The notes under the pieces are model-generated. The model was given only the letters and a program-made list of their open reading frames with translations, did no database searches and was not told the origin of the DNA. This document shows, one piece after another, positions 28,377 to 63,547 of a stretch of DNA of 64,000 nucleotides. A program made the position numbers and the translations under genes. Source of the DNA: Caldithrix abyssi DSM 13497 (lineage in GTDB: Bacteria; Calditrichota; Calditrichia; Calditrichales; Calditrichaceae). Within the stretch, counting starts at the first letter, position 1; the number at the start of each line of letters is the position of its first letter. The DNA is taken from contig NZ_CP018099.1 in assembly GCF_001886815.1 (NCBI RefSeq), forward strand, positions 3,594,501 through 3,658,500. The letters run 5' to 3'.

Positions 28377-28562
28377 GTAAATTATGCCGATTTGCTGAGT
28401 TTTCATCTTACATGATGAGATACAGTTCTATTTTTTCTTTCCGATCCTGGCGTTCCTTTTTAGCTGACGCTGTACAGAAGTGTTTGCGTTAAAAAATCTT
28501 TGTGCGCTTTGTGACTTATTTGCGCTCCTGGTGGTTCGTTTTTGGTTGCGGTTTGGTTGCCC
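28377..28562. repeat. Dispersed repeat, copy 1 (related to 63548-63734)
   Basis: About 186 bp matching the sequence immediately to the right of the insertion sequence at the window end, from GTAAAT to TTTTTGGTTGCGG, at roughly 85-90 percent identity by eye and with about one indel. It includes the element CTTTGTGCGCTTTGTGACTT. The match crosses no coding region. Confidence 0.75.
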
Positions 28563-28699: not shown

Positions 28700-30760
28700 T
28701 TAAATCAAACCGTCAATGATGAGATTGTCGAGCAAAATACTTCCGGCCTTTTCAGGCAAAAGCAATCCGATTTGCTTCAATGCCCGATTTAACGGAAGTT
28801 TTGTTTTATTCTGCATTTCGCCATTTATCAAAAGAACTATTTCATCATTAAGGGCAATGACCTCGACGATTAAAATATTTTTGTTTTTGAATTGAGAAAA
28901 AGACATAGGATATTCTTTCCATTTAAAGGTCTTCTTATTCTGCAAAAGGGCAATCGATAATTTATGATTGATCATATCTAAAAGTGAGGTGTACAAAAAA
29001 TCATCTTCGTATTTTACGGAAAGGCCCAGATTCTCATTTCGAGATGCGGGAAAGTCCCGGGCAAGATCTAATCGGGCAATAATTCCCGAGGTTGCGCCAT
29101 TTAAGTCAACCGGAAAATAATAGGCCATTGCACCTTTTGATTGCTTTTTATTGATGATTAAGCGGTCGTTTTCGATTGCTACCGTCATCATATCTGTATT
29201 TAATTCGGTGAAAGTTTTATAGTCAGATTCCGCGCCGGAAAAGGTCTGTTCCAGTAACGTATTAGAAATTAATAGATTATTTTTTTTCAAATATTTGATA
29301 GCGTTTGGTGAAAACTTTATTTCATCTTTTAAAGGGGCGGCGGCATTGTAACTCGCAACGAGGGTAACTTCATCCCCATTTTTACAGAGCGTTTTTGCCG
29401 GGGGAACGGTTTTTAACACGGCGCCCATTGCATTCGACCGGTTTTTAACTTTCTTCAAATTAACTTTTAGGCCCTGTTTTTTCAGGTAGTTAATTGCCGC
29501 AAACACGTCCGCGCCAATCAGATCAGGCAAATATAAGTATTTGGGCCCTTTGCTCACCCACAAACGGACAGCGGATTTCGAATGGTCGGTAAATTCCAGA
29601 TTAAATACCTGATCGTGCGGAATATTCTCTCTGTAAACATATTCGGTTATTACTTCATGGCCCTTATTTATTAGCTCCTGCTGCACCTGTTCTACAGGCT
29701 CGCCAATATATTTATCCAGCGATGTTCTGCTGTTAAATTGCCAGAATATGACGCCTGCCAGCAAAAAGACCGCCACTACCACGCCCAGAACCAGGGGCAG
29801 CCAGTTAGATTGACGATTATCTATATTGCTTCTGGATTTAGTGGGCTTCTTTTTCGGGCGCTCGCTTACGACCGGAGTTTTTTTCTGCACAGTCACACGA
29901 CTATTTTTCGTTGGTTGCTGCGCCTGCGTAAAATGGGCAAAAATCAAATTTGAAAACTGAGAACAGGTCTGAAATCTCTTTTCCGGATCTTTATCGGTCG
30001 CTTTATTAATGACATCAACCAGCCAGTTGGGAATATCCTTATTAAAAGTCCTCGGATCAATGATGGGTTCTTTAACGATTTCTTCCATCAATTTAATAGG
30101 ATTGTCAGTGGGATGGTACGGCAATTTTCCTGTGGCTAATTGGTAGAGCAACACGCCCAGGCTGTAAATATCGGAACGATGATCAACGCCGGCCGCGTTC
30201 TGGATTTGTTCCGGACTCATAAAATAGGGCGAACCTAACTGGGCGCCCGTTCGCGTATGCCCCTCTTGATCCAGCGCCTTGGCAATTCCAAAATCACTTA
30301 TTTTGGCCACTTCATATCCATGAAAATAACCGGAATATTCCGAAAGAAGGATATTCATTGGCTTGATATCGCGATGAATCACTCCCTTTTGATGGGCATA
30401 ATCCATACCGGCAAGAATTTGTGTAAAAACAGGAACAATTTCTTCAAGCTTCAGGCCATGGCCCCTCTGCTTAATCACCTCGCTAAGAGCCGGCCCGGGA
30501 ATATATTCCAGAAGAATAAAATACTTGTTATCAACCCGTTCCACATTGTAACAGCGCACAATATTGGGATGGTTTAAGTCCAGTTGCAGACGCGCTTCTT
30601 GCAAAAAACGTTTACGTATATGTGGATCTTCCGCGTAATGGTCGTAAAGCAGTTTCATAGCCATTTTCATACCAGTAAGCTCATCCCGCACCAGGTAAAC
30701 CGTGGCCATACCGCCAGAGCCAAGTGTTTTGATTTTCTGGTATTTTCCGATTCTCTCCAT
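28700..30760 (-). CDS. Membrane Ser/Thr protein kinase with PASTA domains and C-terminal beta-rich domain
   Basis: A 686-residue Hanks-type kinase. The catalytic domain (about 6-275) is intact: glycine loop 'GSGGMATVY' at 14-22, Lys36, 'HRDIKPMN' at 129-136, 'DFG' at 156-158 and 'SPE' at 182-184. A basic linker and one membrane helix (about 320-341) follow, then two PASTA-like repeats outside (about 348-480; 'YIGEPVEQVQQELINKGHEV', 'LPDLIGADVFAAINYLKKQG'). The last 200 residues form a beta-rich domain ending 'AGSILLDNLIIDGL', reminiscent of concanavalin-type sugar-binding folds. An external sensor signalling to a cytoplasmic kinase is likely. A GTG two codons upstream is an alternative start. 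Last gene of the 21-gene run. Confidence 0.9.
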   Translation of the reverse strand: MERIGKYQKIKTLGSGGMATVYLVRDELTGMKMAMKLLYDHYAEDPHIRKRFLQEARLQLDLNHPNIVRCYNVERVDNKYFILLEYIPGPALSEVIKQRGHGLKLEEIVPVFTQILAGMDYAHQKGVIHRDIKPMNILLSEYSGYFHGYEVAKISDFGIAKALDQEGHTRTGAQLGSPYFMSPEQIQNAAGVDHRSDIYSLGVLLYQLATGKLPYHPTDNPIKLMEEIVKEPIIDPRTFNKDIPNWLVDVINKATDKDPEKRFQTCSQFSNLIFAHFTQAQQPTKNSRVTVQKKTPVVSERPKKKPTKSRSNIDNRQSNWLPLVLGVVVAVFLLAGVIFWQFNSRTSLDKYIGEPVEQVQQELINKGHEVITEYVYRENIPHDQVFNLEFTDHSKSAVRLWVSKGPKYLYLPDLIGADVFAAINYLKKQGLKVNLKKVKNRSNAMGAVLKTVPPAKTLCKNGDEVTLVASYNAAAPLKDEIKFSPNAIKYLKKNNLLISNTLLEQTFSGAESDYKTFTELNTDMMTVAIENDRLIINKKQSKGAMAYYFPVDLNGATSGIIARLDLARDFPASRNENLGLSVKYEDDFLYTSLLDMINHKLSIALLQNKKTFKWKEYPMSFSQFKNKNILIVEVIALNDEIVLLINGEMQNKTKLPLNRALKQIGLLLPEKAGSILLDNLIIDGLI

Positions 30761-30785
30761 TTTCACCCTTTCACCTTCTTGTGAT

Positions 30786-31730
30786 TCAATTCTGCATAAG
30801 CATTAAAAGTAAAATTAACAGAAAACTAATGGTCAGATAATTGGCCAAAACCAACAGACAACCGGGGTTTTGCGCTTTTTTCAACTTATTTAAGCGAATT
30901 TCATCCAGCCTTTGCAAAATTTCGTTACAGGTTTTAAAACGTTGTTCTGGCTCCCTGGCCATCATTTTGATAATGATTTTTTGTAACCATACCGGCACAT
31001 TCCGGTTTTGACTGGCAATAGGGATAATATTGTTGGTCATTATTGCATTTACCAGTTCAGTAATAGAATTGTTCTTCTGGGGATAGGGAGTTTTTGCCGT
31101 GCACACATAATAGAATGTTGCTCCCAGGCTGTAAATATCGGAACGGTGATCCACATTCGCCGGATTTTGAATTTGTTCCGGACTCATGAACGAATAGGTA
31201 CCCAGGCGAACATCGCTACGCGTTAAATCGCTTACGCCCAGCGCTTTGGCAATTCCCAGGTCTCCCAGCTTGACCACACTATGTTCACTGAATCCCATTC
31301 CCGAATCGTACACAAAAATATTATGCGGTTTAATATCGCGGTGCACGATGCCTTTTTCATGCAAATACTGAAGCGCATTTAAAATCTGTTTAAAATATGC
31401 CAGCATTAAATTCAATGACAGTGGCTCCCCGATTTGTTCAATTAATTGCGCTAAATTGAGCCCCGGCACATACTCCAACAGTAAATAGATTTTATTATCC
31501 TCTTCAAAAACGTCGTAACAACGGATGATGTTGGGATGTTTTAGCGCAAGTAATATACCTGCTTCGGTTAAAAATCTCTTTTTGATTCTTGGATTTGCGG
31601 CATATTTCGGCAACAGGGTTTTTAAAGCGAACGGTTTACCAAGCTTTTTATGCATTGCCAGATAAACCGAAGCGATGCCGCCTTCTCCCAACTTTTTGGT
31701 TATAATTAAATCCTTAAGCTTAACGTCCAC
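30786..31730 (-). CDS. Ser/Thr protein kinase with C-terminal membrane anchor
   Basis: A 314-residue kinase. Catalytic features: 'GEGGIASVY' at 15-23, Lys37, 'HRDIKPHN' at 130-137. The usual DFG is DLG at 157-159 ('LGDLGIAK'); the metal-binding Asp is kept, so activity is still expected. The domain is followed by a short linker and a terminal hydrophobic segment (about 290-312) that would anchor it, with no extracellular sensor. Its start overlaps the end of the FHA-like gene by 11 bp. It is similar to the PASTA kinase next to it, probably an ancient duplication with loss or gain of the sensor. Confidence 0.9.
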   Translation of the reverse strand: MDVKLKDLIITKKLGEGGIASVYLAMHKKLGKPFALKTLLPKYAANPRIKKRFLTEAGILLALKHPNIIRCYDVFEEDNKIYLLLEYVPGLNLAQLIEQIGEPLSLNLMLAYFKQILNALQYLHEKGIVHRDIKPHNIFVYDSGMGFSEHSVVKLGDLGIAKALGVSDLTRSDVRLGTYSFMSPEQIQNPANVDHRSDIYSLGATFYYVCTAKTPYPQKNNSITELVNAIMTNNIIPIASQNRNVPVWLQKIIIKMMAREPEQRFKTCNEILQRLDEIRLNKLKKAQNPGCLLVLANYLTISFLLILLLMLMQN

Positions 31731-33177
31731 GATGCTTTTCGAGCTTAATCAATAAAGATTCGATTTCTTCTGTATCCTGAACAAAAGGTTCAAATTTAGA
31801 TTGTATTTGATTGATATTATTAACCGCGTTTTGATAACTGATGGACACATCGTTAACCAAAAGTACAACGCCAGATAACGCTTCGATACCGCTCAATTTA
31901 TTGGCGTTCGTTTTTAACCAATCCATAGTTTCAGAAAAAGAATCCGCTATTTTTAAAAGCTTTTGGCTTTCAACATCTAAAAGACGATAGGCCGATAAAA
32001 ATTGATTGGCGGTTATTTTAAGATGTTGTGCATTAGATGAGAGAGGACTTTCTCTGAACTGATCGGCGGCCCGTTGATAGGCGATGAATGAATCATAGGT
32101 CCTGTTTAAATGGGTGTTGTACAAAAAAAGCGTGTTTAAATCTTGTTTAAAATGTTTAAGAGATTCTTTGGTCTTTGAGGGGATTACAACACTCAGTATT
32201 TTGAAACCCGATTGTTGTTCTAAATCATTTAAATTCTGGATAATCGTTTGGTAGTATGGTTTCATATCCGACAGGACGCTTATATCGGCAACACAATCAG
32301 CCAATAATTCTTCTTTTTCTGCCATACTTTGCCGGGTAAATTCCTCAGACGATAACTTTTTTACGATTTGATCTCTAAGTTCCTGTGGATTGGGCCCTTG
32401 AATATAACGAATGCCAAACACAAAAAAGACTAAAAACAGCACAAATAAAGATGGAATCAGAATTTGATTTATTCGCTTTTCCTTTTTTAATTGAGTGTAT
32501 GAAAAGGTGGTGTCATAAAGTCTGCGCATGGCGCTTTTCTTTTTCGGCTTTGGCGCTCCCTGAGTCAAAGAAAAAATACAATGGATTCCATTAATGGAGA
32601 TTGTATCGCCTTCCGATATCTTTTCTTTCTTTAACGGCCTCCCGTTGAACAGAATACCGGGTTTATTGAATAAATTTCGGGCTACAAACTGGCCTTTTTC
32701 AATCGCAACCTTTACCAGTCGGTTTTCGTCATGCAGGTCTGGCGACCAATACATATCCCGCTTTTGTTCATCAAAACAAAAGTAACCGGGCAATGTTTTA
32801 ACGCGTTCTGTTTGTCCGGTGTGAGAAAAAGTTAACATGATTTCCCATACAGGTTCCGTTTGCTCTTTTTTTTCCGGCCCCGGCGCTTGTTGAAAAGACA
32901 ATAAATAACTGCCCAATAATATCTGATCGCCGGCCTTTACAAACTCCGTCGCCTTTAAGATGTTGCCGTTTAAAATAGCCGGCGTCTTTCCTGCCGGCGT
33001 AATAATCAACTTTGGCCCTTTTACCTCGACAACGAGATTGATTTCATCAACATCTTCGCCGGGCAGTCTTAGATCCGTTGCTTTTCCGGAACCAATGGTC
33101 AGCCGTTTTTGATCGATCTGATAGCGGATCAGTACTTCCCGCTTTGCATTGCGAACGGTGATGGTCCAATGTTTCAT
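31720..33177 (-). CDS. Membrane protein with two divergent FHA-like domains
   Basis: A 485-residue protein. Residues about 1-95 and 105-205 each have the FHA strand pattern ('LTIGSGKATDLRLPG ... PAILNGNILKA ... GDQILLGSYLLSF'; 'NKPGILFNGRPLKKEKISEGDTISINGIHCIF'). Neither carries the canonical Arg-Ser-x-x-His phosphothreonine-binding residues, so binding may be lost or altered. A membrane helix lies at about 238-259 ('ILIPSLFVLFLVFFVFGIRYI'), and the C-terminal ~220 residues are helical, probably periplasmic. It overlaps the downstream kinase gene. Assignment as FHA rests on fold pattern and on neighbours. Confidence 0.7.
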   Translation of the reverse strand: MKHWTITVRNAKREVLIRYQIDQKRLTIGSGKATDLRLPGEDVDEINLVVEVKGPKLIITPAGKTPAILNGNILKATEFVKAGDQILLGSYLLSFQQAPGPEKKEQTEPVWEIMLTFSHTGQTERVKTLPGYFCFDEQKRDMYWSPDLHDENRLVKVAIEKGQFVARNLFNKPGILFNGRPLKKEKISEGDTISINGIHCIFSLTQGAPKPKKKSAMRRLYDTTFSYTQLKKEKRINQILIPSLFVLFLVFFVFGIRYIQGPNPQELRDQIVKKLSSEEFTRQSMAEKEELLADCVADISVLSDMKPYYQTIIQNLNDLEQQSGFKILSVVIPSKTKESLKHFKQDLNTLFLYNTHLNRTYDSFIAYQRAADQFRESPLSSNAQHLKITANQFLSAYRLLDVESQKLLKIADSFSETMDWLKTNANKLSGIEALSGVVLLVNDVSISYQNAVNNINQIQSKFEPFVQDTEEIESLLIKLEKHRGR

Positions 33178-33189
33178 TTTTCTAACTTT

Positions 33190-34494
33190 CTATTTTTGTT
33201 CAGTTTGTTTTACCTGTTTTTCAACGCTGGTATCCGGCTGTGCGCTTGTGGAATCCTCGCCAAAAAGTTTATCGAAACCAAGATCCTGAAGAAACTTAAT
33301 TTTACTCGCCTCATCCGTCAAAGAATCGCCGGGCGTTCCTGCAGATACCATTAATTTAAAACGGCCATCGCTTTTTTGGATGGCGATGGGTTCATTTTTG
33401 GGATAATAAAGGGTGTGTATTTTTATGGTATCCAGCTTGATCCGAATGGAATGCAGAAAGGCTTCTCTTTCTTTACGGGATGGCGGGAGAAACAGCAAAG
33501 AATGGAACTCACCGATATTCAGGATTTTTTCTTTGTTCTTCTCTGATCCTCTGTCATTCAATATTTTATTTGAATTATCATTAGTCATAATCGGCGATAT
33601 AACGGTTTTCGATTTGGAAACGACTCTTTTAATTAGTGATTTTTGATATAATGTAAAAAATAAGCCAGTAACTATTAACACAGACAGAGCGGACAAAATT
33701 ACAACCCATTTCTTTTTATTTTTCTTGGGTTGCCCACTTAGATTTTTTCCTCTTATCGAGGCGGGATCTTTTATTTTTAGTAACTGGATGGTGATATTAT
33801 CACGCCCGCCGTTTTTATTTGCCTCCCGGATTAATTTTTGTGCGGTTTTATCCAGGTTGGATGTGCTATTCAGAATTTGTGCGATTTTTTCATCGCTCAC
33901 CATATCTGTCAACCCGTCCGAACAGAGTAAAAAGATATCGCCTTCTTTTACGGGCACAGGCGAAGAAGCAATTTCCGGCTCAGAGTTCAGATATCCGATG
34001 CACCTGGAAATCCGATTTTTATACTGATGGTTTGTAGCCTGCGAGTTACTCAACACACCGCGTTTTACTAATTCGCTAACATAGGTATGATCATTGGTTA
34101 GCTGGATTAATTTTTTATCGCGAAACAAATATAAACGGCTATCGCCCACATGGGCATAGAAAATTTCTTTACCATTAAAAAGAACGGCAACCAGGGTGGT
34201 ACCCATTTCTGCCAGATGTTGTTTTTGCGCCGAACGTTTACGAATCACTTCGTTGGCAAATTTTACAGAATTTACAAAGAATGAAATGGGTTCATTGAAT
34301 TTCTTTTTAAAATATTCTCCGATGGCCTTTACTGCCAACTGGCTGGCAATCTCGCCCCCTTCTACGCCGCCCATTCCATCGCACAAAACCAGCAGCAACC
34401 ACCCTTCATTCTGGAATGCGGCATAATAGTCTTCATTATTCTGACGTCTTTTCCCCACATCTGATATATTAAACAATTCGTAGTTTTTGACCAT
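33190..34494 (-). CDS. PP2C-family Ser/Thr phosphatase, membrane anchored
   Basis: A 434-residue protein. The PP2C catalytic domain (about 1-242) has all metal ligands: Asp22 in 'NNEDYY', Asp39-Gly40 in 'LCDGMGG', 'AHVGDSRLYLFR', Asp193 in 'CSDGLTD' and Asp232 in 'GGRDNIT'. A membrane helix follows at about 262-283, then a ~150-residue C-terminal region of unknown fold outside. It is the expected antagonist of the two kinases encoded downstream, as in PknB/PstP and in the PpkA/PppA pair of type VI secretion. It lies 24 bp after the VWA-FHA gene and 12 bp before the FHA-like gene. Confidence 0.92.
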   Translation of the reverse strand: MVKNYELFNISDVGKRRQNNEDYYAAFQNEGWLLLVLCDGMGGVEGGEIASQLAVKAIGEYFKKKFNEPISFFVNSVKFANEVIRKRSAQKQHLAEMGTTLVAVLFNGKEIFYAHVGDSRLYLFRDKKLIQLTNDHTYVSELVKRGVLSNSQATNHQYKNRISRCIGYLNSEPEIASSPVPVKEGDIFLLCSDGLTDMVSDEKIAQILNSTSNLDKTAQKLIREANKNGGRDNITIQLLKIKDPASIRGKNLSGQPKKNKKKWVVILSALSVLIVTGLFFTLYQKSLIKRVVSKSKTVISPIMTNDNSNKILNDRGSEKNKEKILNIGEFHSLLFLPPSRKEREAFLHSIRIKLDTIKIHTLYYPKNEPIAIQKSDGRFKLMVSAGTPGDSLTDEASKIKFLQDLGFDKLFGEDSTSAQPDTSVEKQVKQTEQK

Positions 34495-34518
34495 GGTAAA
34501 TATCCCTATTTACTTTTA

Positions 34519-35973
34519 TTAGTACCGTATTAACTCCACCTGATAACCAACCGGCCCAAAAGACAAAACGTCGCCATCGTTCAAAACGGCTTGTTTTACT
34601 TTTTTCCCATTTAGCCAAACGCCATTGGTGCTCCCCAAATCCGTGATTACGATTTGCCCATCCTGATAATCGATTAGTGCGTGCTCCCTTGAGACCTTTG
34701 GATTATTGATTTGAATCTGGCAGGAAGGTGATTTGCCAATTTTAGTCGGATAATTTTCAATGACTATCGGATCATCATTTTTGCCTCGTAAAACGCAAAC
34801 GGTGGGTAATCCTTTTTCTAAAACTAAAGTGCGATTAAGCTTATCCGCTTCAGCGCTTTCTTTTTCCCTCTCTTTATTATTTAACAGTTGGCCGACGTAA
34901 TCCAGATTCTTGCGAAATTTTTTCAATTCCCTTTCATACCAGTTTTCCTTCTCTCTGGCCTCACGTTCCACCGCTTCAACATCCTGCTTTTTGCGAAGAT
35001 AAATTCCGATTGTAAGCCCCATGCTGCTTAAAACAATAAGCAAAATCGCAACCATACTCCACGTCGAAAATCTCTCAGGCGTGGCGATTACTCTTTCGCT
35101 TATGGTCCTCAAGGTATCATTAGCGGTATGAATTTCTATGGCCAGGGGACCGTTTAAGCCCCCTGGCTCTGCTTTTAAATTGTATTGAACAACATAAAAA
35201 GCCATGATGTTGTTTTTAATCTGTTGATACGCTTTGAGGATATCCTGTCTTTTTTGGGGATGCTGGTAGGCGCCGGCTGTAAAATCCGATATTTTTTCCA
35301 GATTCTTCAGATAGATAGGATTCACTCTGGTATATCCGACGGAAAATACCTTAACCTGTTTATTGATGGCCTCTTCAATACAATCATCCAGCGTATAGGC
35401 CAGCGAACCATCATTTTTTCCATCCGAAAAAAGAATCAAAAAACGGAGTGGAGGGCTTTTGTATTGATCGAAAACATTGATCGCTTTGTAGATTCCGTAA
35501 TAGAGTTCAGTAAGGTTCTCTTTAGCCGTTAATTTTTGGACCTTGTTACGGATTAATTCATAATCCGTTGTAAAAGGTTGAAGCAGATAAAATTCGTTTC
35601 CAAAAGCGCAAAGCCCGATTCGAATTGGCGGTTTTAGCCTTTTGGTAAAATCTTTGATAGCCTGTTTTACTTCACCAATCGGGTTTTTATTCATACTCCC
35701 GCTAATATCAACACAAAAAAGAATATCTACGGGCTTTCCGGAATGGATATAAGGTTCAATAGAAAAGTCATCGATCTTTTCTTCGCCGATTTTGAGAGTC
35801 ACATCAGAAGGTCGAATGACAGGCAAGCGATTCTGCGTTTCCCCTTGCAGACGAATAACCAACTGATCGGTCGGATAGATGCCCGCAGGCTCTTGCACAA
35901 TTTGGAGGTTAAGCTCCCCACCCCAGAGGATTGAAAAAAACAATAAACTAAACGCCAGCAACAATAACTTCAT
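34519..35973 (-). CDS. VWA-domain protein with C-terminal FHA domain
   Basis: A 484-residue protein with a signal peptide (about 1-18), a beta-rich segment, and a von Willebrand A domain (about 82-260) with an intact MIDAS: Asp89, Ser91 and Ser93 in 'DISGS' and a downstream 'LFSDGKNDGS'. A membrane helix (about 308-328) leads to a cytoplasmic coiled coil and a C-terminal FHA domain (about 388-480) with the canonical 'KIGKSPSCQIQINNPKVSRE' then 'HALIDYQ' and 'LGSTNGVWLNG'. The topology places a metal-dependent adhesion domain in the periplasm and a phosphothreonine reader inside, a direct link between envelope and kinases. Confidence 0.92.
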   Translation of the reverse strand: MKLLLLAFSLLFFSILWGGELNLQIVQEPAGIYPTDQLVIRLQGETQNRLPVIRPSDVTLKIGEEKIDDFSIEPYIHSGKPVDILFCVDISGSMNKNPIGEVKQAIKDFTKRLKPPIRIGLCAFGNEFYLLQPFTTDYELIRNKVQKLTAKENLTELYYGIYKAINVFDQYKSPPLRFLILFSDGKNDGSLAYTLDDCIEEAINKQVKVFSVGYTRVNPIYLKNLEKISDFTAGAYQHPQKRQDILKAYQQIKNNIMAFYVVQYNLKAEPGGLNGPLAIEIHTANDTLRTISERVIATPERFSTWSMVAILLIVLSSMGLTIGIYLRKKQDVEAVEREAREKENWYERELKKFRKNLDYVGQLLNNKEREKESAEADKLNRTLVLEKGLPTVCVLRGKNDDPIVIENYPTKIGKSPSCQIQINNPKVSREHALIDYQDGQIVITDLGSTNGVWLNGKKVKQAVLNDGDVLSFGPVGYQVELIRY

Positions 35974-35990
35974 GATGTGCTTTACCTTTA

Positions 35991-36812
35991 CTAAATGTCT
36001 TCAAAATAATCCTTTTGCAAAAAATCTTGTGGTCGTTCATAACGCACAACGCGCGTTCTACTCAGAATATCATGAAAGGCGCGTTTTTCAGGATGAAAGC
36101 CACACATCACATGACCGATCAAAACCAGTGAAGACAAAATCTGAGCAAAAAACCTACCGGTTGCCCGGCCAAAGGTAACCGGATTTAAATCGTTATCGAC
36201 CAGAAATATCTGAAATAAACGCATCCCCACGGTTGCCTGATATCTTGAAGACCATTGTAATGCAAAATATAACCAGGCAAAAATTATCATAAGGAAAGAA
36301 ATGAACACCGTAAAACCACTGCCCGGTCTGAAACCACCCGGCCCATCCGCCAGGGCATTGGCGAGCAAAGCAAAGAAAAGTCCTATGAAAAGGACGCCCA
36401 GATTTACAATTAACATATCGAAAATTGAGGCTCCGAATCGTACCCAAAAGCCGCCATATTTGTAAACATAATCATTGGTATCCTGAACCGATACTGAAGG
36501 CGCCGGCGCTGAAACCGCCGATGGCGCGCTACTTCTTCTTCGTGTTTTTTCTTTAAACAGAGATAATACTTGATCCCAGGTCAGGGTATATTGATTACCC
36601 AGGATGATCTCATCTGTGGGGCCAATTCGTTGAGGCTTGTTCTGGGGAATGAGTTGACCGTTAATCGTTGTTCCGTTGCGGCTTCCAATATCCGTCAGGT
36701 AATAATTACCATCGCTTTGCAATTCAATAATACAATGGTGCGTTGATACTTTTGCAAAATCAGACGGAATAATTAAATCGTTGTCTTTTCCTCTGCCTAT
36801 ACGTTTTTTCAT
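35991..36812 (-). CDS. FHA-RDD membrane protein
   Basis: A 273-residue protein. The N-terminal FHA domain (about 3-68) has 'RIGRGKDNDLII', 'VSTHHCIIE' and 'DIGSRNGTTINGQ', with Arg, Ser and His at the phosphopeptide-binding places. A Ser/Pro/Ala linker precedes an RDD domain (about 118-265) with three to four membrane helices; 'GFWVRFGASIFDMLIVN' carries the Arg-Asp pair that names the family, and 'GMRLFQIFLVDNDLNP' follows. RDD proteins are integral membrane proteins of uncertain transport function. The ATG at 36812 has GGAAGGAG upstream and is preferred to a GTG one codon earlier. Confidence 0.9.
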   Translation of the reverse strand: MKKRIGRGKDNDLIIPSDFAKVSTHHCIIELQSDGNYYLTDIGSRNGTTINGQLIPQNKPQRIGPTDEIILGNQYTLTWDQVLSLFKEKTRRRSSAPSAVSAPAPSVSVQDTNDYVYKYGGFWVRFGASIFDMLIVNLGVLFIGLFFALLANALADGPGGFRPGSGFTVFISFLMIIFAWLYFALQWSSRYQATVGMRLFQIFLVDNDLNPVTFGRATGRFFAQILSSLVLIGHVMCGFHPEKRAFHDILSRTRVVRYERPQDFLQKDYFEDI

Positions 36813-36852
36813 CACACACTCCTTCCTAAATATTTAGAAATCAATCCTTGTT

Positions 36853-37470
36853 TTAATTTTCCTTTCCAGGCGCTTCGCCAATTATTTTGATTTTGAATAC
36901 CGTCTTACCCATTTTGATGATATCATTGTCTTTTAAAGTAGCGCGGTCAATAGATTCTTCTCCGTCGTTAATAAATGTACCGTTAACGCTTAACTTGTCT
37001 TCGATAAAAGTCTTATTGCCTCTGAAAAGAATGATCGCATGGTCGCCGCTCATCGCCATATCATTGATGACAATATCATTATTCGTATTACGCCCGATGC
37101 TATTTTTTCCAAGATAAAGCGGATAATGATCGCCATAGGGATTGTGGCTATAGGTGACGAGAAATCCTTCAATTCGTTTTTTCACGGTTGCGCGTTTTTG
37201 CGCAATAAGCGCACTCTCTTCGTCTTTTTCCAGAATTTTGTCGGGGACGGTCTGGTCTGGTATTGTTTCATCACTCATTATTCTTTTTTGAATCGGCGGA
37301 TCATCTTGAGGTAACGTGTCATAATCTGGCACGGTGCTCTCTAATGCGGCTGTCTCTTCGGAATCCAGATTGACCATATTTTCCTCTTCTTCTGCACTCT
37401 TACAAAACGGGCATTCACTAAATTTTGAATCATCATAAACATGCCCCATTCTACATTTGGTAAAAGCCAT
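36853..37470 (-). CDS. Zinc-ribbon-FHA protein
   Basis: A 205-residue soluble protein. Residues 6-24 form a putative zinc ribbon with three Cys and a His ('CRMGHVYDDSKFSECPFC'). An acidic Thr-rich linker with repeated 'DETIPDQTVPD'-like stretches (about 30-95) offers many kinase sites. The C-terminal FHA domain (about 105-198) has 'NSIGRNTNNDIVIND', 'MSGDHAIIL' and 'SVNGTFIND'. The layout (Thr-rich tail plus FHA) resembles GarA/Fha-type kinase substrates that switch by self-binding. It is the first gene of the signalling half of the run. Confidence 0.85.
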   Translation of the reverse strand: MAFTKCRMGHVYDDSKFSECPFCKSAEEEENMVNLDSEETAALESTVPDYDTLPQDDPPIQKRIMSDETIPDQTVPDKILEKDEESALIAQKRATVKKRIEGFLVTYSHNPYGDHYPLYLGKNSIGRNTNNDIVINDMAMSGDHAIILFRGNKTFIEDKLSVNGTFINDGEESIDRATLKDNDIIKMGKTVFKIKIIGEAPGKEN

Positions 37471-37499: not shown

Positions 37500-40400
37500 C
37501 TATTTGAACTTTAACAGATTTTTAAAATATATTTGAGTTTTATAACCTCCGATGTTCTTTTTTATAAAATTATTGGGCAATTGAAAAACCGCCGCCGGCA
37601 GATCAAAGCTTTCTACGGCGCCATTTCTTTCGGCCGATTGCAATATCAAATATTGCCATAAAAGTTTTAATTCTTGTGAGTCGTTTTCTGAAAGAGCCTG
37701 TTTTAAAAACGCCACCGCTCCACCGGTTGCGGTTGATTGATAATAGTTCCTTATCAAAAGAAAATTAAGAAGACTGGTAATAGATTTTGAATGTACGTAA
37801 GAAGGATTAAGAGACCGTAACCAGAAGATGGTTTCGATACGATTTTTCAAATGTTCTGTGAACGGCCCGGTTTCACACTTATCAATCAAAATATTAAAAA
37901 GATACTCCTTAAGCGCGCTTTGAGGATAGACGGACAGAAATAAATCCGTTGTTTGCCTGGCCATTTCCCAGGCATCTTTTTGTAATAGATCATAAACCAA
38001 GGCGACAAAGGACGTATCGCTAAACCAATGCCGCTCTTTGAATAAATTGATACCGTATTGAAAATTATCATAGGCTCCACGAAAGTCATTAAGCTTTAAA
38101 AGAATCCGCCCCCGATATTCATAAGCCCATTCTCCGGTAAAGGAATTGGAGGTCAAAAGGTCCAAAAAATTGGCCAGTTCCTTTAGACGGTTATCCGCCA
38201 TCAGTCTTTCGGCTGCGTTCACCGCTGTTAATAACATGAGTGGCCCTTTCCCTTCCCGGGCGCTCCACATCCATAATTGATTTTGTATTAAAAGATAGAG
38301 ATAACCCTGCGTGTCAGCGGCCATGTTATCTATTTTATTGTCAATATATTTATTTTCCTGAATATCAAACCATAAGTTGTTTTTCCGAATGTAGTAGGTA
38401 CTATCGGCCTGTACGATTATGATATCTTCCTGAGGTTGGTATTCAATATCCAGAATACGCCTGCCCAAAAATCCCTTAGATTCGTCCTGCCGCAGCCATT
38501 TTCCTTCATGAAAAAGATACAAACCCGAGTTCGTGCCGATATAAAGGAATCCGCCAATATCCATTAACGCATCGGTAATTTTAATCACCGATATGGGCAA
38601 CGGCACGCTCTTTACCTGTTTATTTTTATTGTTGTAAATAAAAACTTTACTTTCGGTTACAAATAGCCATTCTTCTTCATTTTGACTGCAGATTTGTAAA
38701 AAGTTGAAGGAACGTAACTCAGCTGGTATTCGGAAAGAGCGCCACTGTTCGCTTTGCAGGCTATAATAATACACCTGATTTTTCGTATTAAAAAGCGGCG
38801 CATTTTTACTTAAAAAGAGATTTTTAATAGCCCCCTGCGGCCGGAGATTCATATTTAATTTTTGAATCGTTTCCGCTGTAAGCTCCACAATCTCATTTTT
38901 CGAGGTTAAAGCTAAATCTCCCAATACAGAAGAGACAACTTTTAAAACGGACGTTTTATTGTCGATAAGTTTAGGCTCGATATTTTGCGGATTACAAACA
39001 AATACCTGCCTTTTTTCATTGGTCAGGTAACATTGCTCGTGGCCGTTAAAGACCTTCCATGTTGTTGCATTATTTAAATCAATTTTATTAAAGTTGGTGA
39101 ACGTTGCTTTGTACTGTTTTTCCAGTAATTTTTTCATGTACGATTTGTAGTTATAATAACGAGCCTTAAGACGCACAATGGGATCGGTACTGTTTTCCAG
39201 TAGTTTCTTCTCTAAATTTTCAGCATTACCATAACCGTTCATTTCGAGCGTTTTATAAATAGCCCAATCCACGCCTTTGATGTTAGGAGAAAATTTTTGA
39301 TAAATCTCCTGATAGATGGCATTACTGATGGCCTCTTCACCATAAACGGCATACAGTTTGGCCAATTGCAGTTTGTTTTTAATAATTTTTTCAGGTGAGG
39401 TTTGCATTTTGATCATTTTCATCTGAAAGCCAACGCTGAGCTCGGGCGAAACAACCTGGGCGGCCAGAATTAGTTTTCGCAACAGGCGTTCTTTTTCGGT
39501 TTGCGAATTCAATCTGAGAATCCTGTTTTGAATTGTCTGCATGGGGATGATTTCTTTGCCGATATTGGCCGTTCTTTCCAGAAGGATATCTAACCATTCG
39601 ATTTGTACCGAATTATCAAGATATGCCCAATAACGATCTATATTTTTTACCAACGCTTCGGTCTGTTCAGTATCGTCTGCAATAAAAAATAGATATTGAT
39701 TTTTAATAAACTTTGGCAATGTTTTAAAAATATTCTTCGGGAAATTCATTTTAAATGCAAGGTGGTTTTGAGAGATAAAATACGTTTTATCGACTCCATT
39801 ATTAAAAATATTCAAACACGGCTCATTATTCAGAACCTCCGGCATCGGGATCTTTTTAATTTTAGTTCCGCTTAAAACGCCAAACTCCCGATCGTTAAAC
39901 AAAATTAATGTATTGGAATTATCCACTCCCAATCTCTTAAAGTTGTTTTGATTTTCTGTTAATTTTATCCACTTCTGGCCATCAAAATGATAAATGGCTT
40001 TGCTGGTTAATGCATAAACCAGACCGTTGTTATCCACAACGGCATCGCGCATTCTTTTGTTAAGCGGCTTAATGATCGTTATCTCTTCATTTAGAGGAAC
40101 CACGCCTTTTTCACCGACCAGCCATAATATGCCTGATCGCCCCGGGATCACTTTAATGAAGTCCTGTAAATATTTAAAAGATTTCAGGTTTAATGTTTTC
40201 CACAAACGGTTTTTATAAACAACAACGCTTTTATCATAAACAATAACGATATAATCATTAAAGTTTAGCAAATGATTAACACGACGGGGGGGCAATGTTT
40301 TGTCAAATGGTTTCACCTGATTCGCTATCAAAGACAACAAAAAAACACCTCTATCCGTACCTAACAGGATTTCCGAAGGAGTGAGTTCTGCCACACAGTT

Positions 40401-40661
40401 AACGTCGTTAAAGTCGACTTTCGATTGATCGATTTGAGTAATTTTATTTTCCAGACGCTCCAGATCAATCTGAATAAGAAAATTATCGTTGCCGAGTAAG
40501 ATGAGCTTATTTTGTTGTGGGAATTTATACGCGCTGTAGATATCAATAACATCCCCTTTGCCATCAAGAAAATCGACGGTGGTAAAATCTCCGGCAAAAA
40601 GGCCACGGAGGACGGCCGCCACCAGAACGACAAGCGTTGTAAATACGGTTTTCCTTTTCAT
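37500..40661 (-). CDS. Large secreted beta-propeller/TPR protein
   Basis: A 1053-residue protein with a signal peptide ('TVFTTLVVLVAAVLRGLFAG'). Residues about 25-330 and 550-800 contain regular beta-propeller-type strands ('ILLGTDRGVFLLSL', 'FLYIGTNSGLYLFHEGKW', 'ILWLVGEKGVVPLNEE') like two-component regulator propellers. Between and after them are helical TPR-like stretches (about 385-540 and 820-1030). No membrane helix or histidine kinase domain is seen. Start 40661 is preferred (the reading frame begins with a non-ATG codon further up). It begins 2 bp after the PorV-like gene. Role unknown; a periplasmic or surface sensor or scaffold is plausible. Confidence 0.75.
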   Translation of the reverse strand: MKRKTVFTTLVVLVAAVLRGLFAGDFTTVDFLDGKGDVIDIYSAYKFPQQNKLILLGNDNFLIQIDLERLENKITQIDQSKVDFNDVNCVAELTPSEILLGTDRGVFLLSLIANQVKPFDKTLPPRRVNHLLNFNDYIVIVYDKSVVVYKNRLWKTLNLKSFKYLQDFIKVIPGRSGILWLVGEKGVVPLNEEITIIKPLNKRMRDAVVDNNGLVYALTSKAIYHFDGQKWIKLTENQNNFKRLGVDNSNTLILFNDREFGVLSGTKIKKIPMPEVLNNEPCLNIFNNGVDKTYFISQNHLAFKMNFPKNIFKTLPKFIKNQYLFFIADDTEQTEALVKNIDRYWAYLDNSVQIEWLDILLERTANIGKEIIPMQTIQNRILRLNSQTEKERLLRKLILAAQVVSPELSVGFQMKMIKMQTSPEKIIKNKLQLAKLYAVYGEEAISNAIYQEIYQKFSPNIKGVDWAIYKTLEMNGYGNAENLEKKLLENSTDPIVRLKARYYNYKSYMKKLLEKQYKATFTNFNKIDLNNATTWKVFNGHEQCYLTNEKRQVFVCNPQNIEPKLIDNKTSVLKVVSSVLGDLALTSKNEIVELTAETIQKLNMNLRPQGAIKNLFLSKNAPLFNTKNQVYYYSLQSEQWRSFRIPAELRSFNFLQICSQNEEEWLFVTESKVFIYNNKNKQVKSVPLPISVIKITDALMDIGGFLYIGTNSGLYLFHEGKWLRQDESKGFLGRRILDIEYQPQEDIIIVQADSTYYIRKNNLWFDIQENKYIDNKIDNMAADTQGYLYLLIQNQLWMWSAREGKGPLMLLTAVNAAERLMADNRLKELANFLDLLTSNSFTGEWAYEYRGRILLKLNDFRGAYDNFQYGINLFKERHWFSDTSFVALVYDLLQKDAWEMARQTTDLFLSVYPQSALKEYLFNILIDKCETGPFTEHLKNRIETIFWLRSLNPSYVHSKSITSLLNFLLIRNYYQSTATGGAVAFLKQALSENDSQELKLLWQYLILQSAERNGAVESFDLPAAVFQLPNNFIKKNIGGYKTQIYFKNLLKFK

Positions 40662-40663
40662 AA

Positions 40664-41635
40664 TTAAAACCAAATTTTAGTGGATACAACTTGTTGATTA
40701 TCTAAGACATCTAAAATTCTGTAGCTATAATCCAGTTCGAAATGGAAACTGCTTCCAAAATTCATTAACAATCCGGCGCCCAGACTATAAAATTTTTCGG
40801 AAGTGCGGAGCAAGTCGAATGTTACCAGCTTGTCGCGCAGTTCCATATTAACATTACCCACGCCGGCCCGAAAGCTTATAAATTTTACGCCGGCCAGGTC
40901 TTTAATGGGAAAAATCTCCAAGCCGGCATTAAACTTTAAGGGTTCCTGCTCCATTTGTTTGAAGCCTAACAGAAAATGGGCAAAGCCCTTTCTTATCCAC
41001 TCCGGATGATAATCGAAAGCAATGCCCATTTGTTTCGGGCTGTAATCGTGGTAGCTATCATTCCATTTTATTTCGTAACTATTCTTAAAGTTGGCGCCGA
41101 CTCTCAAATCGTGCCAGGGCATATAAGTAACGCCTATTTCAAAACCAAATCCGCTGCCATTGTTAGATTGCGATTGTGCGGCAAATTGACTACCGACGTA
41201 TTTTACGCTCAATCCCAGAGTAAAAGGAAAAAACTTATAGGCATAGCCAATAAAAACAGAGTAAAAATAATTATCGAAATTCCCCAGGTAATTGCCGTTT
41301 TCATCGTATTCCTGAATATCCGGCACATTAACTCCAATAGTGCCCATTCCAAATGCATGCCGGCCATAAATCGGGACGGTGGCGGCAAAGCTAAAATATT
41401 GCATCAGATCCCATTGGATGATATTCGAAAACTGGACACATTTATTTTCATGGAATACCATCAAAGCAGGGTTTACAAATAAATCGCTACCGCCGTTTAA
41501 GTACGCTTCATTCGTTCCTCCCAATGCCATGCTGGTGGCGTCTGGATTGATTTGTAAAAAGGCGGTCGGCAAATCCCCTGCATATAGCAAAACGCTTAAG
41601 AAGAATAGCCAAAGCCAGGTTTTAATGGTCTTCAT
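40664..41635 (-). CDS. PorV/PorQ-like outer-membrane beta-barrel protein
   Basis: A 323-residue protein with a signal peptide (about 1-19) and the N-terminal motif 'FLQINPDATSMALGGTNEAYLNGGSDLFVNPAL', typical of the PorV/PorQ family (residues about 26-58), followed by alternating beta strands and a final strand 'FELDYSYRILDVLDNQQVVSTKIWF' ending in Phe as expected for a barrel. PorV shuttles cargo in type IX secretion; related barrels of unknown role are widespread in FCB bacteria. It directly follows a gene for a large protein with a sorting-like C-terminus, supporting a cargo-handling role. Confidence 0.82.
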   Translation of the reverse strand: MKTIKTWLWLFFLSVLLYAGDLPTAFLQINPDATSMALGGTNEAYLNGGSDLFVNPALMVFHENKCVQFSNIIQWDLMQYFSFAATVPIYGRHAFGMGTIGVNVPDIQEYDENGNYLGNFDNYFYSVFIGYAYKFFPFTLGLSVKYVGSQFAAQSQSNNGSGFGFEIGVTYMPWHDLRVGANFKNSYEIKWNDSYHDYSPKQMGIAFDYHPEWIRKGFAHFLLGFKQMEQEPLKFNAGLEIFPIKDLAGVKFISFRAGVGNVNMELRDKLVTFDLLRTSEKFYSLGAGLLMNFGSSFHFELDYSYRILDVLDNQQVVSTKIWF

Positions 41636-41648
41636 CGTTTTATCTCCA

Positions 41649-44600
41649 TCATTTATTGTTTACAACAATTTTTAAAATGGGGCTTTTAAAGTTGTCAGAA
41701 ACAATGCGCGCAAAATAAACGCCATTGGCCACGATTTCTCCTCTTAGGTTGGTGCCATCCCACGGGACTGTTTTTCTGAAGCTTGCCAACCCTGGTAGCC
41801 TGGAGGAAAACTCTTCATAGTAAACCAGATTGAATCCCATATCAAAGATGTAAAGTTTAAAGGTATTTAATTGTCCGGAGGCAAAAGCGATGTTGGTTTT
41901 TTGCCCCTGTTTGGGATTGAATGGGTTGGGGAAATTGTAAATATCTTTAATGCCCTCCACCGTATCGCCAACAACCGTATAGTGTAAGCGACGCAATGTT
42001 TTGTTATTGGCCGAATCTACCAGAGTCACGGTTACCGTTAAAGCGCCGGGCTCCAACTTTATATTGTAAGCTTTACAATTAAATTCATAAACCTCACCCG
42101 GCTTATAAGGGAACAGATCCATCTGTAACGAGTCAATTGGTATCGCATCATTTATTATCGCTCGCGAAAACATCAGGTAAGCGTCCTTTATAGGGCTGTT
42201 TTCTTTTTCGTTATCAATTGTAAAAACGAAATCGGGTTGAATATCAATATATTGGTTATTGTCTCCGGCCACGGGCGTTATGCGCATAATTTCCGGAGGC
42301 GTTACATCGCTAAAAATCGCCGCACTAACAGGTAAAGAGCCGATATTTAAACTGGCCGCTTGCTCCCATATCTCTTGAACATAAAAACTTACAACGTACT
42401 TTCCTTCCTCCAGGTCAGTCGGGGCCCATTTAAAATCAACATAAACCACTCGATTTGAATCGCTCCCACTGGCATTTAATTTTAATTGTCCGTTTTCAAA
42501 AAGTTTAGTTTTCCCAGCGTCCTGGGAAATTTTAAAAATTTCATTGATTTGCAGAATACTTTGTCCATTATTATTTAGCGTCACCACACGAAATAGTATT
42601 TGATCCGGCACTTTCGAATTCAAGAAAACGCTGGCTCTTAGCTCGTCATTGACTCCATCCTGGTTGGGGCTTATATATTTATTGATCCAACTAACCTCTG
42701 ATATCATACTTTCTATAAAAACAAAAACGTCATGTGTTAAATCGCCCGAATTTTTGTTCCCCGCCAGGTCGGCAATGGTTTCGGCCGGCAGATAAATCTG
42801 AATATCTTTTTGCTGTTTTAGCCAGTTAAATAATTGATTAATCTGGATTGAATCTTTGATGATAAATTTTTGAATGGTGCTCAAGTTTTGCGCTTCGGAG
42901 GCTTCTATCTGAAAATAGTCGTTCTCTGTTTTTAATTGGATATGGGCATTCGGTTCAAAATTTACAATTTCATTAAAATACAAAAAGAGAATAAAGTAGG
43001 GTTTATTGGTTTGTGGATCGGTATTAATTTGTAATTGCGCGCCCTGGCCGACAAAGTGGGGAACCTGACGATCGGCCAGAACTCTTACATCAACCGTGTC
43101 GCTTACATTCCCCAGCCAATCTATCTGCCAGAAACTAAATTTGTAAAAGCCATCTTCAGGAAGGAATACATTGAATTTGCTCCAGGTAGAGTCATTTGTA
43201 AAATCACTTAATAATTCGCCGTTGAAATACAATTTGGCTTTATATTCTTTAGTCCCTTCAAACGAAATCGACTTTTCTTTAACAATTGAATTGATCTCAT
43301 TGGTCAGCGTTGGAGGAACCGGCCTGACGACGTCGATTTTTAACTGCCCGATTTTGAAATCTTCTTGAGTTTTATTGCCAATCGTGTCCCGAACGTTTTT
43401 AATAGAAAGCTCCGCAATATTTTGAAAATCCTGCCAGCTTTTTTGCTCTTGTTCCAGAACTTCTTGATTGATCACAAAACGGATTTCTTGTTGATTGCTG
43501 AGAAATTTAGCCGGTATGGATAATTCATTATTTTGATTCGATAAAGATATGTTGGCCTCCGTATTACTCGTATCTAACGGCTCATTAAAACGAATTAAAC
43601 CGACCAGGCTGTAGTTATTCTGCGAAATAAAGGCAATATTTATGGTATCGGTTGATAAAATAGTTTGAGTGACTTGTGGGGCAAGAAAATCAATAAAAAT
43701 TCTGGGTAAAACAGAATCCGGGGCATTGTTGGTATTTCCGGCCTGATCGCTAAATGTTTGCATTTCGATTTCAACATTGCCATTCCAGGAGGAATCTGTT
43801 TCAACGTCTTCTAATTTCAGATCAAAGGTAAAGGATGAAGAGCTGTTGTTATAAGTTAATTTAGGGGTAATCTCCAGGTCTCCTTTTTTAATTTTTATTA
43901 AATCTGGAACTTTTTTAACTGTTTCGCTAAAAGAAACCGTAAAGGTTACAGTTGTATCTTTTTGGGAAATACGTCCGTAATGAGGCGTAATTTCAACCAC
44001 CTGTGGTTTGATGAAGTCGGCCGTTATAATATTGTCGAGCGGTAAATTGACGATATTATTGTGAAGGTCTGCAATCTTTTCAATGAATAATCCGACTTTT
44101 CCCGTCCACTGTGCAAGTGAATCGTTGTTAATCATGTCTAAATTCACCTGAATAAATAATTGAGAATTGTCGTTTTGGAGCGTTATTTTTTCCGGCGGGA
44201 TAATGAGCGCCCTTCCTTTTTCAGAAATTAATTTGATCTTTGTATCATCCCTTAATTTAACTTTTTCGCTGAATTGAACCGTAATCTCGAATTGCGGAAA
44301 GGCAAAAGACCAGAAATCCGAGCTAACTTCATGACCGTCTATTTTAGGCCCGGTTTTATCTACAATAATGTTCAATGTATCCTCAGCTCCTATTGAACCT
44401 TCTAACAAGATAAGTTGAAAAACATAATTGTAACTGCCTTCGGCTAAACTCCCCACGTTATCGATAGTTACCGAAAAAGTTTGATTGATTGTATCGATAT
44501 TGGTGACTTCAATTATAGCGGACGGATTATCCTGCCTGAAATATTGTATTTTACTTAAAGTGTCGGTGATAGCCAGTGTATAACTACCGGTCACCGTAAA

Positions 44601-44714
44601 GGGATCTGTGGGATTATCAACAGAAGTAGAATCCAGAGTTATTTGCGTATTTTGCGCCAAGCTTATTGTAATCGATATTAGCAATAAAAACAGGATATTG
44701 TTTAACCTTTTCAT
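41649..44714 (-). CDS. Giant secreted Ig-like protein with FlgD/type IX-like C-terminal domain
   Basis: A 1021-residue protein with a signal peptide ('NILFLLLISITISLAQ'). Several bacterial Ig-like domains are seen, with repeated 'FTVSFSETVKKVPDLIKIKKG'-type strands ('ITVQFSEKVKLRDDTKIKLI') and 'VDKTGPKIDG', 'DFLAPQVTQTI' as repeat starts, the pattern of 'Ig-like/invasin' surface proteins. The last ~90 residues begin 'IYNFPNPFNPKQGQKTNIAF' and contain 'VPWDGTNLRGEIVANGVYFARI', the FlgD-like/type IX sorting domain family. Likely surface-exposed or anchored. It is 13 bp upstream of the PorV-like gene. Confidence 0.85.
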   Translation of the reverse strand: MKRLNNILFLLLISITISLAQNTQITLDSTSVDNPTDPFTVTGSYTLAITDTLSKIQYFRQDNPSAIIEVTNIDTINQTFSVTIDNVGSLAEGSYNYVFQLILLEGSIGAEDTLNIIVDKTGPKIDGHEVSSDFWSFAFPQFEITVQFSEKVKLRDDTKIKLISEKGRALIIPPEKITLQNDNSQLFIQVNLDMINNDSLAQWTGKVGLFIEKIADLHNNIVNLPLDNIITADFIKPQVVEITPHYGRISQKDTTVTFTVSFSETVKKVPDLIKIKKGDLEITPKLTYNNSSSSFTFDLKLEDVETDSSWNGNVEIEMQTFSDQAGNTNNAPDSVLPRIFIDFLAPQVTQTILSTDTINIAFISQNNYSLVGLIRFNEPLDTSNTEANISLSNQNNELSIPAKFLSNQQEIRFVINQEVLEQEQKSWQDFQNIAELSIKNVRDTIGNKTQEDFKIGQLKIDVVRPVPPTLTNEINSIVKEKSISFEGTKEYKAKLYFNGELLSDFTNDSTWSKFNVFLPEDGFYKFSFWQIDWLGNVSDTVDVRVLADRQVPHFVGQGAQLQINTDPQTNKPYFILFLYFNEIVNFEPNAHIQLKTENDYFQIEASEAQNLSTIQKFIIKDSIQINQLFNWLKQQKDIQIYLPAETIADLAGNKNSGDLTHDVFVFIESMISEVSWINKYISPNQDGVNDELRASVFLNSKVPDQILFRVVTLNNNGQSILQINEIFKISQDAGKTKLFENGQLKLNASGSDSNRVVYVDFKWAPTDLEEGKYVVSFYVQEIWEQAASLNIGSLPVSAAIFSDVTPPEIMRITPVAGDNNQYIDIQPDFVFTIDNEKENSPIKDAYLMFSRAIINDAIPIDSLQMDLFPYKPGEVYEFNCKAYNIKLEPGALTVTVTLVDSANNKTLRRLHYTVVGDTVEGIKDIYNFPNPFNPKQGQKTNIAFASGQLNTFKLYIFDMGFNLVYYEEFSSRLPGLASFRKTVPWDGTNLRGEIVANGVYFARIVSDNFKSPILKIVVNNK

Positions 44715-44736: not shown

Positions 44737-45996
44737 TTATAGCTCTATGGTTAAATCCATTACATAAATTTTAGTCCAGATCAATTCGTCTTTATTTTCA
44801 ACGCTCCCGCGGCTGGTGAATGCCACGCGATAGGTGCCATTTCCAATCGGCACAACGGAGATATCTAAGTTGCTGGCCGTTCCCGTGGGCAATTGTATGG
44901 CTTTTTGGGTCGGGATATGGTAATACATCAGAGGGTCTTTTAGCTGAATGTCATTAGCTACATACAACAGGCCGCTATTGCCCACCCATTGCGGGCCTTT
45001 GTTGCGGCTGTCGTTTAAATTTACATTGGAAACCAATTCTGTATTTCGGCCTGTTCTCAGGTCATAGATCCAAATACTGTATTTTTGCGTGTGCCCCTTA
45101 TCTGAAAAATAGGCGATTTTGGTTCCATCGGGCGACCATTCCGGCGAGGTTTCAATAGCCGAAGAGGCGGCAACGGTTGATATATTATCTCTGCTAAAAA
45201 AGCGCCCTTTCCGGCCTTTACGATCGGCTAAAAGTATATCGCTGTTTTCTTTGTAGTCTCGCATGAAAACCAGATAGTTGTCATCGGGCGAAAACTTAGG
45301 CACCAATTCCGTATAAATTTCTTTTGTTGTAAAATCATCATATTTTTCTTCGTCTGATTTTTTAATTTGAAAAATCGATTTATACCTGCCGTTTACTTGG
45401 TGATCAAAAAAGACCAGACGGCGATCGACCGTAAACGCCACATAAAAGATAGGACGCCCCCTTATATAATCAACCGTCCGTGCAAAACTGGGATAAAAAA
45501 TCTGAATAAAACCCGCATCTTCAATTTTGGGATACTTCATAAATGATTTGTTCTCAGGAATATCCTTTCCCTGAAACCAGGATAAATCAGGATTATTTAA
45601 CTTAATTACGCCTGTGTACAAATTTTCTTTGCCCATATTGACTACATGAACAAAATCGAAATAGAGTTCATTATATTTTTTTTCGTACTTCCAACACAAT
45701 TCTCCGGTCCTTTCCTGAGCGTCAACGCTGCCAAATTGTAAAAAATCGCCAGAAGAACTTATTGGCTTACCTAATTTAATAGTCTGATCTTTTTGCAGAT
45801 CGTAAATGTATTGATAGTAGTTTTTGTTGTTTAAGATGACATAACTCAAAAAACGACCATCCGGCGAGAGCAGAACATTGCGGTAGTTATATTTACCGGT
45901 TAACTCTAATTTCCTAAAATTTTTAATAGACACCTTCTGGGCCTGCACAAAGCTAACAAACACAAAAGCTATTAAAATGAATAGCATCTTTTTCAT
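44737..45996 (-). CDS. TolB-like PD40 beta-propeller protein, secreted
   Basis: A 419-residue protein with a signal peptide ('MLFILIAFVFVSFVQAQ') and repeated PD40/TolB-type blades: 'VLLSPDGRFLSYVIL', 'PKFSPDDNYLVFMRDYKENSDILLADRKG', 'SPEWSPDGTKIAYFSDKG', each with the 'SPDG..IAY' motif. It would form a periplasmic propeller for protein binding. The long 5' extension of the frame lacks a ribosome-binding site; ATG 45996 has AAGGAG. It is 11 bp after the preceding gene. Confidence 0.87.
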   Translation of the reverse strand: MKKMLFILIAFVFVSFVQAQKVSIKNFRKLELTGKYNYRNVLLSPDGRFLSYVILNNKNYYQYIYDLQKDQTIKLGKPISSSGDFLQFGSVDAQERTGELCWKYEKKYNELYFDFVHVVNMGKENLYTGVIKLNNPDLSWFQGKDIPENKSFMKYPKIEDAGFIQIFYPSFARTVDYIRGRPIFYVAFTVDRRLVFFDHQVNGRYKSIFQIKKSDEEKYDDFTTKEIYTELVPKFSPDDNYLVFMRDYKENSDILLADRKGRKGRFFSRDNISTVAASSAIETSPEWSPDGTKIAYFSDKGHTQKYSIWIYDLRTGRNTELVSNVNLNDSRNKGPQWVGNSGLLYVANDIQLKDPLMYYHIPTQKAIQLPTGTASNLDISVVPIGNGTYRVAFTSRGSVENKDELIWTKIYVMDLTIEL

Positions 45997-46007
45997 TTTT
46001 ACTCTCC

Positions 46008-46967: not shown

Positions 46968-46980
46968 AATCTTCCTCTTT

Positions 46981-49784: not shown

Positions 49785-49785
49785 C

Positions 49786-51734: not shown

Positions 51735-51737
51735 AGT

Positions 51738-52610: not shown

Positions 52611-52624
52611 GGAGCCCTCTCCGA

Positions 52625-55728: not shown

Positions 55729-55742
55729 TTTGAGCTCCACTA

Positions 55743-57614: not shown

Positions 57615-57685
57615 GATTTTTACCTCTGTAAAAATTTTTAAACGCTTTGCAGAAATTTTATTCAATAATTACAAATGATTGCGTT

Positions 57686-61535: not shown

Positions 61536-61552
61536 GGGGCTGTCCCAAAAGT
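61536..61552. repeat. Left terminal inverted repeat of the IS
   Basis: 17 bp, exact complement of 63527-63543. Confidence 0.9.
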
Positions 61553-63510: not shown

Positions 63511-63526
63511 AAATTTACTTTCATCG

Positions 63527-63543: not shown

Positions 63544-63547
63544 GGGC

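Follow-up and report, generated by a model that had tools for sequence, protein, structure and literature searches.

Signalling through Hanks-type kinases and FHA domains is best known from Actinobacteria, Firmicutes and the type VI secretion system (T6SS). Here we analyse a 64,000-nucleotide stretch of the Caldithrix abyssi DSM 13497 chromosome (NZ_CP018099.1, positions 3,594,501 to 3,658,500; the window), in which seven minus-strand genes (28700–37470) encode two kinases, a PP2C phosphatase and four FHA-type proteins. Read from sequence, these genes form a complete set to add, remove and read threonine phosphate, and they are the last seven, at the 3′ end, of 21 co-directional genes that run from 58540 to 28700, neighbouring genes lying no more than 37 bp apart. 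On balance we favour the reading that they constitute an autonomous, membrane-anchored phosphothreonine (pThr) relay of PASTA-kinase/PstP/FHA type that has no relation to T6SS, is attached to an Opp-type/envelope operon and probably controls it.

The kinase, phosphatase and FHA genes

An earlier reading of this DNA (the original prediction) had described a set of two kinases, one PP2C and four FHA-type proteins in this interval. All seven open reading frames (ORFs) lie on the minus strand where it had placed them, separated by −11 to +37 bp, and their Pfam matches (in order along the module: Pkinase with PASTA, Pkinase, a weak FHA/Yop-YscD match, PP2C, VWA with FHA, FHA with RDD, and FHA) bear out that gene content. 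The boundary did not hold, since the run extends to 58540 and comprises 21 genes; the module's place as the tail of a 21-gene predicted operon was missed. Hydropathy predicts membrane segments in six of the seven proteins, the exception being the Cys-ribbon–FHA protein. The genes are as follows, with transmembrane (TM) segments in residue numbers.

28700–30766, minus: PK1, Hanks kinase, TM (323–341), PASTA, C-terminal extracytoplasmic domain of unknown fold (Pfam, hydropathy, motifs in the translation)
30786–31730, minus: PK2, Hanks kinase with C-terminal TM (291–309), tandem paralogue of PK1 (Pfam, hydropathy, kinase tree)
31720–33177, minus: two degenerate FHA-like domains, TM (238–256), extracytoplasmic segment (Pfam, alignment, hydropathy)
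33190–34494, minus: PP2C phosphatase, TM (264–282), PstP-like layout (NF033484, Pfam, hydropathy)
34519–35973, minus: signal peptide, VWA, TM (308–326), cytoplasmic FHA (Pfam, hydropathy, alignment)
35991–36815, minus: FHA followed by RDD membrane domain (Pfam, hydropathy with three TM, alignment)
36853–37470, minus: Cys-ribbon, linker, FHA, no TM (Pfam, hydropathy, alignment, PDB matches)

Both kinases retain the P-loop, the ATP-binding Lys, HRD...N, D(F/L)G and SPE in translation, PK1 reading HRD, DFG, a TRT activation loop and SPE. The PASTA domain of PK1 scores 35.1 bits in Pfam against a cut-off of 23.2, giving the kinase–TM–PASTA layout of the Stk1/PknB family, and the best matches to PK1 are StkP, the S. 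aureus PASTA kinase and PknB. One TM segment was counted in PK1, a weak extra segment at 631–649 falling in the ectodomain and being left uncounted; a single-sequence structure model of that ectodomain is unreliable (pLDDT 36). PK1 and PK2 are sisters in the kinase tree (support 0.988). A 68-nucleotide stretch of the two genes (30156–30223 and 31123–31190) is 84% identical, far above the remainder of both, perhaps through gene conversion. The PP2C protein keeps the DGMGG, GDSR, SDG and RDN motifs, reaches 260.4 bits on the Stp1/IreP model NF033484, above the curated cut-off of 230, and matches Stp1 (E = 2e-43), PstP (7e-37) and PppA (1e-24) in the PDB.

Layered recognition by five FHA domains, as originally envisaged, proves overstated. 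In an alignment of the five, both domains of the 31720–33177 protein lack the canonical GR, SxxH and the N of NG, and the first reaches Pfam FHA at only E = 9e-5. The other three keep the pattern: all pThr-binding residues (GR, SxxH, NG) are canonical in the FHA–RDD and ribbon–FHA proteins, and the VWA–FHA protein has GK in place of GR, with SREH and STNG present. We therefore count three probable pThr readers, one of them with GK, and not five. A whole-genome search returned three FHA domains above the cut-off, all within this cluster. In the VWA–FHA protein the metal-ion-dependent adhesion site of the VWA domain is intact (DISGS), and the predicted TM segments agree with the earlier view of the VWA–FHA and FHA–RDD proteins as spanning the membrane. 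The extracytoplasmic segment of the degenerate protein is rich in predicted helix, its single-sequence model being unreliable (pLDDT 38), and searches in 98 genomes and in plasmids gave no match or matches at the level of the FHA domain only. In genome G048 (L045), of another lineage, an FHA/FHA protein headed by a similar degenerate domain is encoded between kinase and PP2C genes.

The soluble ribbon–FHA protein carries an N-terminal Cys pattern (C-x2-GHxY...ECPFC), and its PDB matches include the Zn-finger FHA protein ArnA (5a8i) and GarA. Its linker contains four T[ILV]P[DQ] repeats (TVPD, TLPQ, TIPD and TVPD). Classical FHA domains prefer pTxxD, which three of the four repeats fit. None of 100,000 shuffles reached four repeats, and the pattern T[ILV]P[DEQ] was absent from the other 20 proteins of the 21-gene run. 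Homologous linkers bear other Thr/Pro repeats, namely KTQIVPP/KTVIMPP in G046, RKTELNPG/RKTEIIPG in G025 and ETQAFTP in G160. The repeat pattern thus supports the Thr-rich linker, as had been proposed, as a plausible phospho-acceptor. One locus holds every FHA gene above the cut-off together with this predicted acceptor, which would make a compact and genetically bounded system.

The upstream core and the origin of the run

The 14 genes that precede the module encode predicted envelope and uptake proteins, numbered here in the direction of the run.

54196–58540, minus: core genes 1–3, lipoproteins or exported proteins of 284, 640 and 514 amino acids (same-order homologues in three relatives)
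48774–54190, minus: core genes 4–8, SBP5 solute-binding protein, two permeases and two ATPases of Opp/Dpp type (family matches, synteny)
46008–48801, minus: core genes 9–10, exported TPR protein of 606 amino acids and a 319-amino-acid protein (family matches, synteny)
44737–46059, minus: core gene 11, TolB/PD40 β-propeller (family matches, synteny)
41649–44714, minus: core gene 12, secreted protein with a C-terminal tail of type IX secretion kind (family matches, synteny)
40664–41635, minus: core gene 13, PorV/PorQ-like outer-membrane barrel (NF033709 at 85 bits, just under the cut-off of 90; synteny)
37500–40673, minus: core gene 14, 1057-amino-acid secreted propeller/TPR-like protein (positional homologue in G023 and G033)

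Homologues of all 14 genes occur in conserved order in genomes G023 and G033, and the first 11 occur in order in G037, up to a contig end. Among 385 sampled genomes the propeller of core gene 11 was found at E ≤ 1e-20 in four: this one, G023, G033 and G037; it was not found in three genomes of the same genus. A narrow literature search yielded no description of the operon.

What lies 3′ of the core differs between genomes. Directly downstream in G023 come a gene for a secreted caspase-domain protein and then one for a DUF4384 protein (L130:2462-6072), and in G033 the next ORF (L146:1-2061), judged from its translation, looks homologous to the G023 caspase protein up to the contig end. A search of this genome with the G023 caspase protein, a query that had no positive control, gave no match. 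It is possible, as a tentative proposal, that the core is an undescribed envelope/peptide-uptake machine whose 3′ output cassettes can be exchanged, a kinase/FHA relay here and a secreted caspase-domain protease in two relatives (with DUF4384 as well in G023), which would wire one surface system to lineage-specific signalling outputs. Such alternative cassettes would be a natural experiment, in which one surface system acquires different outputs.

The G+C content at third codon positions of the 21 genes is 0.39–0.495, compared with 0.51–0.53 in the flanking parA, parB and M23 genes and, on the opposite side, a PpiC/SurA-like gene; some other flanking genes are also low, so that the contrast is moderate. 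Two repeat copies bracket this low block.

28377–28561, no strand: direct repeat just past PK1, copy 1 (166–185 bp, about 90% identical to 63548–63733)
63548–63733, no strand: direct repeat, copy 2, beside an insertion sequence (166–185 bp, about 90% identical to 28377–28561)

The insertion sequence (DDE_Tnp_1_6, 61532–63547) has 28-bp inverted repeats and is flanked on both sides by 203-bp repeats that are 97% identical (61271–63914). By protein searches, the module is absent from three same-genus genomes and from most of the family; a 20-kb DNA search in 15 relatives also gave no match, its flanks having no positive control, so that the absence rests on the protein searches. Low third-position G+C content, the bracketing repeats and absence from same-genus genomes together favour acquisition of the predicted 21-gene operon as a block, which we consider probable.

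Comparison with known systems

The kinase/PP2C/FHA logic is common to the T6SS threonine-phosphorylation pathway (PpkA, PppA, Fha), whose kinds of domain are identical and whose Fha protein likewise acts by binding pThr (PMC3953482). That the module is a detached or ancestral T6SS regulator is nonetheless most improbable, and the pathway was rejected. The chromosome, a single complete contig of 4.98 Mb (published genome 4.98 Mb, G+C 45.1%; PMC5317091), has no match to VipB/TssC (PF05943) or VasE/TssK (PF05936), the only Tss families searched chromosome-wide, in profile searches for which E. coli served as a control and gave a match; no Tss gene is present among the window genes scanned. The FHA proteins score 34–42 bits on the TagH/Fha model TIGR03354 (cut-off 120.25), and the sequences lie nearer the Stp1/PknB families, the PASTA-type kinase and the PP2C resembling StkP and Stp1, with PppA a far weaker match. 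The observation of a full kinase/phosphatase/FHA set without T6SS therefore stands, whereas T6SS as its closest parallel does not; a Tss cluster elsewhere that lacked its own regulators, the alternative once raised, finds no counterpart in a one-contig genome devoid of TssC and TssK. The proximity of two kinases to a PP2C also recalls the phage-defence or toxin–antitoxin kinase–kinase–phosphatase (KKP) modules, and the kinases match the PADLOC models PD-T4-6 and Mad6, which we judged to be generic Hanks-kinase matches. In KKP one kinase is fused to FHA and the other to a cold-shock domain, with consecutive genes (PMC11341870); here neither fusion occurs, an FHA-like gene separates the PP2C from the kinases, extra FHA genes are present and all module proteins but one, kinases included, have membrane segments. 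The consecutive PP2C–kinase–kinase arrangement with its fusions being absent, KKP was rejected and is very unlikely.

A stronger competitor, though in our estimate still unlikely, is a general cell-wall or division regulator like actinobacterial pknAB-pstP-fhaAB, co-acquired with the Opp/envelope operon by chance and regulating peptidoglycan synthesis genome-wide. In the actinobacterial locus pknB-pknA-pbpA-rodA-pstP-fhaB-fhaA the kinases stand last, as they do at the end of this cluster. Both loci pair a PASTA kinase with a second kinase, a membrane PP2C (PstP-like here) and separate FHA genes, and in both the FHA genes lead, the PP2C follows and the kinases close the cluster. In Actinobacteria fhaA, fhaB, pstP, pknA and pknB share one locus (PMC6554272); occurrence of the core elsewhere without the module also fits a chance association. 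However, no rodA or pbpA lies within 28700–58540, and the locus here adds VWA–TM–FHA, RDD–FHA, Cys-ribbon and pseudo-FHA membrane proteins and forms the tail of an Opp/envelope operon, with which the module has composition as well as operon in common. The best score on the FhaB/FipA model NF049868 is 48.8 bits, below the curated cut-off of 125. Moreover, three genomes of the same genus lack the module, as does most of the family, which indicates that it is not essential to the lineage.

By analogy, the nearest functional models would be PknB/PstP/FhaA (PMC6554272), Sulfolobus ArnA/ArnB with kinases ArnC and ArnD (PMC6509490), and GarA/OdhI. ArnA is a Zn-finger–FHA protein and ArnB a vWA protein (PMC6509490); an FHA protein with a Zn-binding-type N terminus, a VWA partner and two kinases recur here, with ArnA (5a8i) among the best PDB matches, but the VWA domain is predicted to be periplasmic and is fused to TM and FHA, a PP2C is present and there is no sign of motility control. 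Like GarA/OdhI, the ribbon–FHA protein is small and soluble with an N-terminal threonine segment; unlike them, it has an extra Cys-ribbon, four TxP sites and no known link to tricarboxylic acid cycle enzymes.

A proposed relay and its counterparts elsewhere

In the relay that we favour, PK1, together with PK2 as its duplicate, would respond to an extracytoplasmic state; each kinase would phosphorylate the other, as well as the ribbon–FHA protein at its four TxP sites and further targets, with the membrane PP2C resetting the system. The resulting pThr sites may recruit the FHA ends of the VWA–TM–FHA and FHA–RDD proteins, which would couple the cytoplasmic phosphorylation state to the periplasmic VWA and the membrane RDD domain. 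Because these seven genes close a single run of 21, the most likely job of the relay would be the switching or assembly of the Opp-type transporter and envelope complex encoded with it.

Several observations weigh against this proposal. FHA domains were not detected in G023, G033 and G037, which carry the core, implying that the relay is not needed for the core and that the adjacency could be accidental; conversely, G046 and G025 have the FHA module but no core, and the same probably holds for G160. Separate promoters for module and core are possible, five further kinases encoded in the genome could use the same FHA readers, and PK1 reaches 331 bits on the NCBIfam PASTA-kinase model NF033483, under the whole-protein cut-off of 450. 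If the proposal is nevertheless true, it ties Hanks-kinase/FHA signalling to an envelope operon that is conserved but undescribed, in a phylum that has been little studied, and this attachment, with a different 3′ gene in relatives, is the part that we find most interesting.

Homologous modules are found in other genomes, some of them outside the phylum. G046 (L042), related at the domain level only, encodes ribbon–FHA, VWA–FHA, PP2C, kinase and kinase in the order seen here, and its three kinases form one clade (0.989) that joins the PK1/PK2 clade (0.883); looser versions are present in G025, which belongs to the same class, and in G160. The homologous modules and the joint kinase clade suggest that the module is of an old kind and has here been newly combined with RDD, the pseudo-FHA protein and the core operon. 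MotA/ExbB-like genes lie inside FHA/kinase/PP2C clusters of two other genomes (L042:4368-6624; L046:6850-7626 and 13544-14314), and are perhaps a further recurring partner of such clusters; in L042 they are accompanied by a gene with an OmpA domain, in L046 by one for a coiled-coil membrane protein. Adjoining the G046 module is an FHA–FHA–ABC transporter fusion of Rv1747-like layout (L042:1330-3630).

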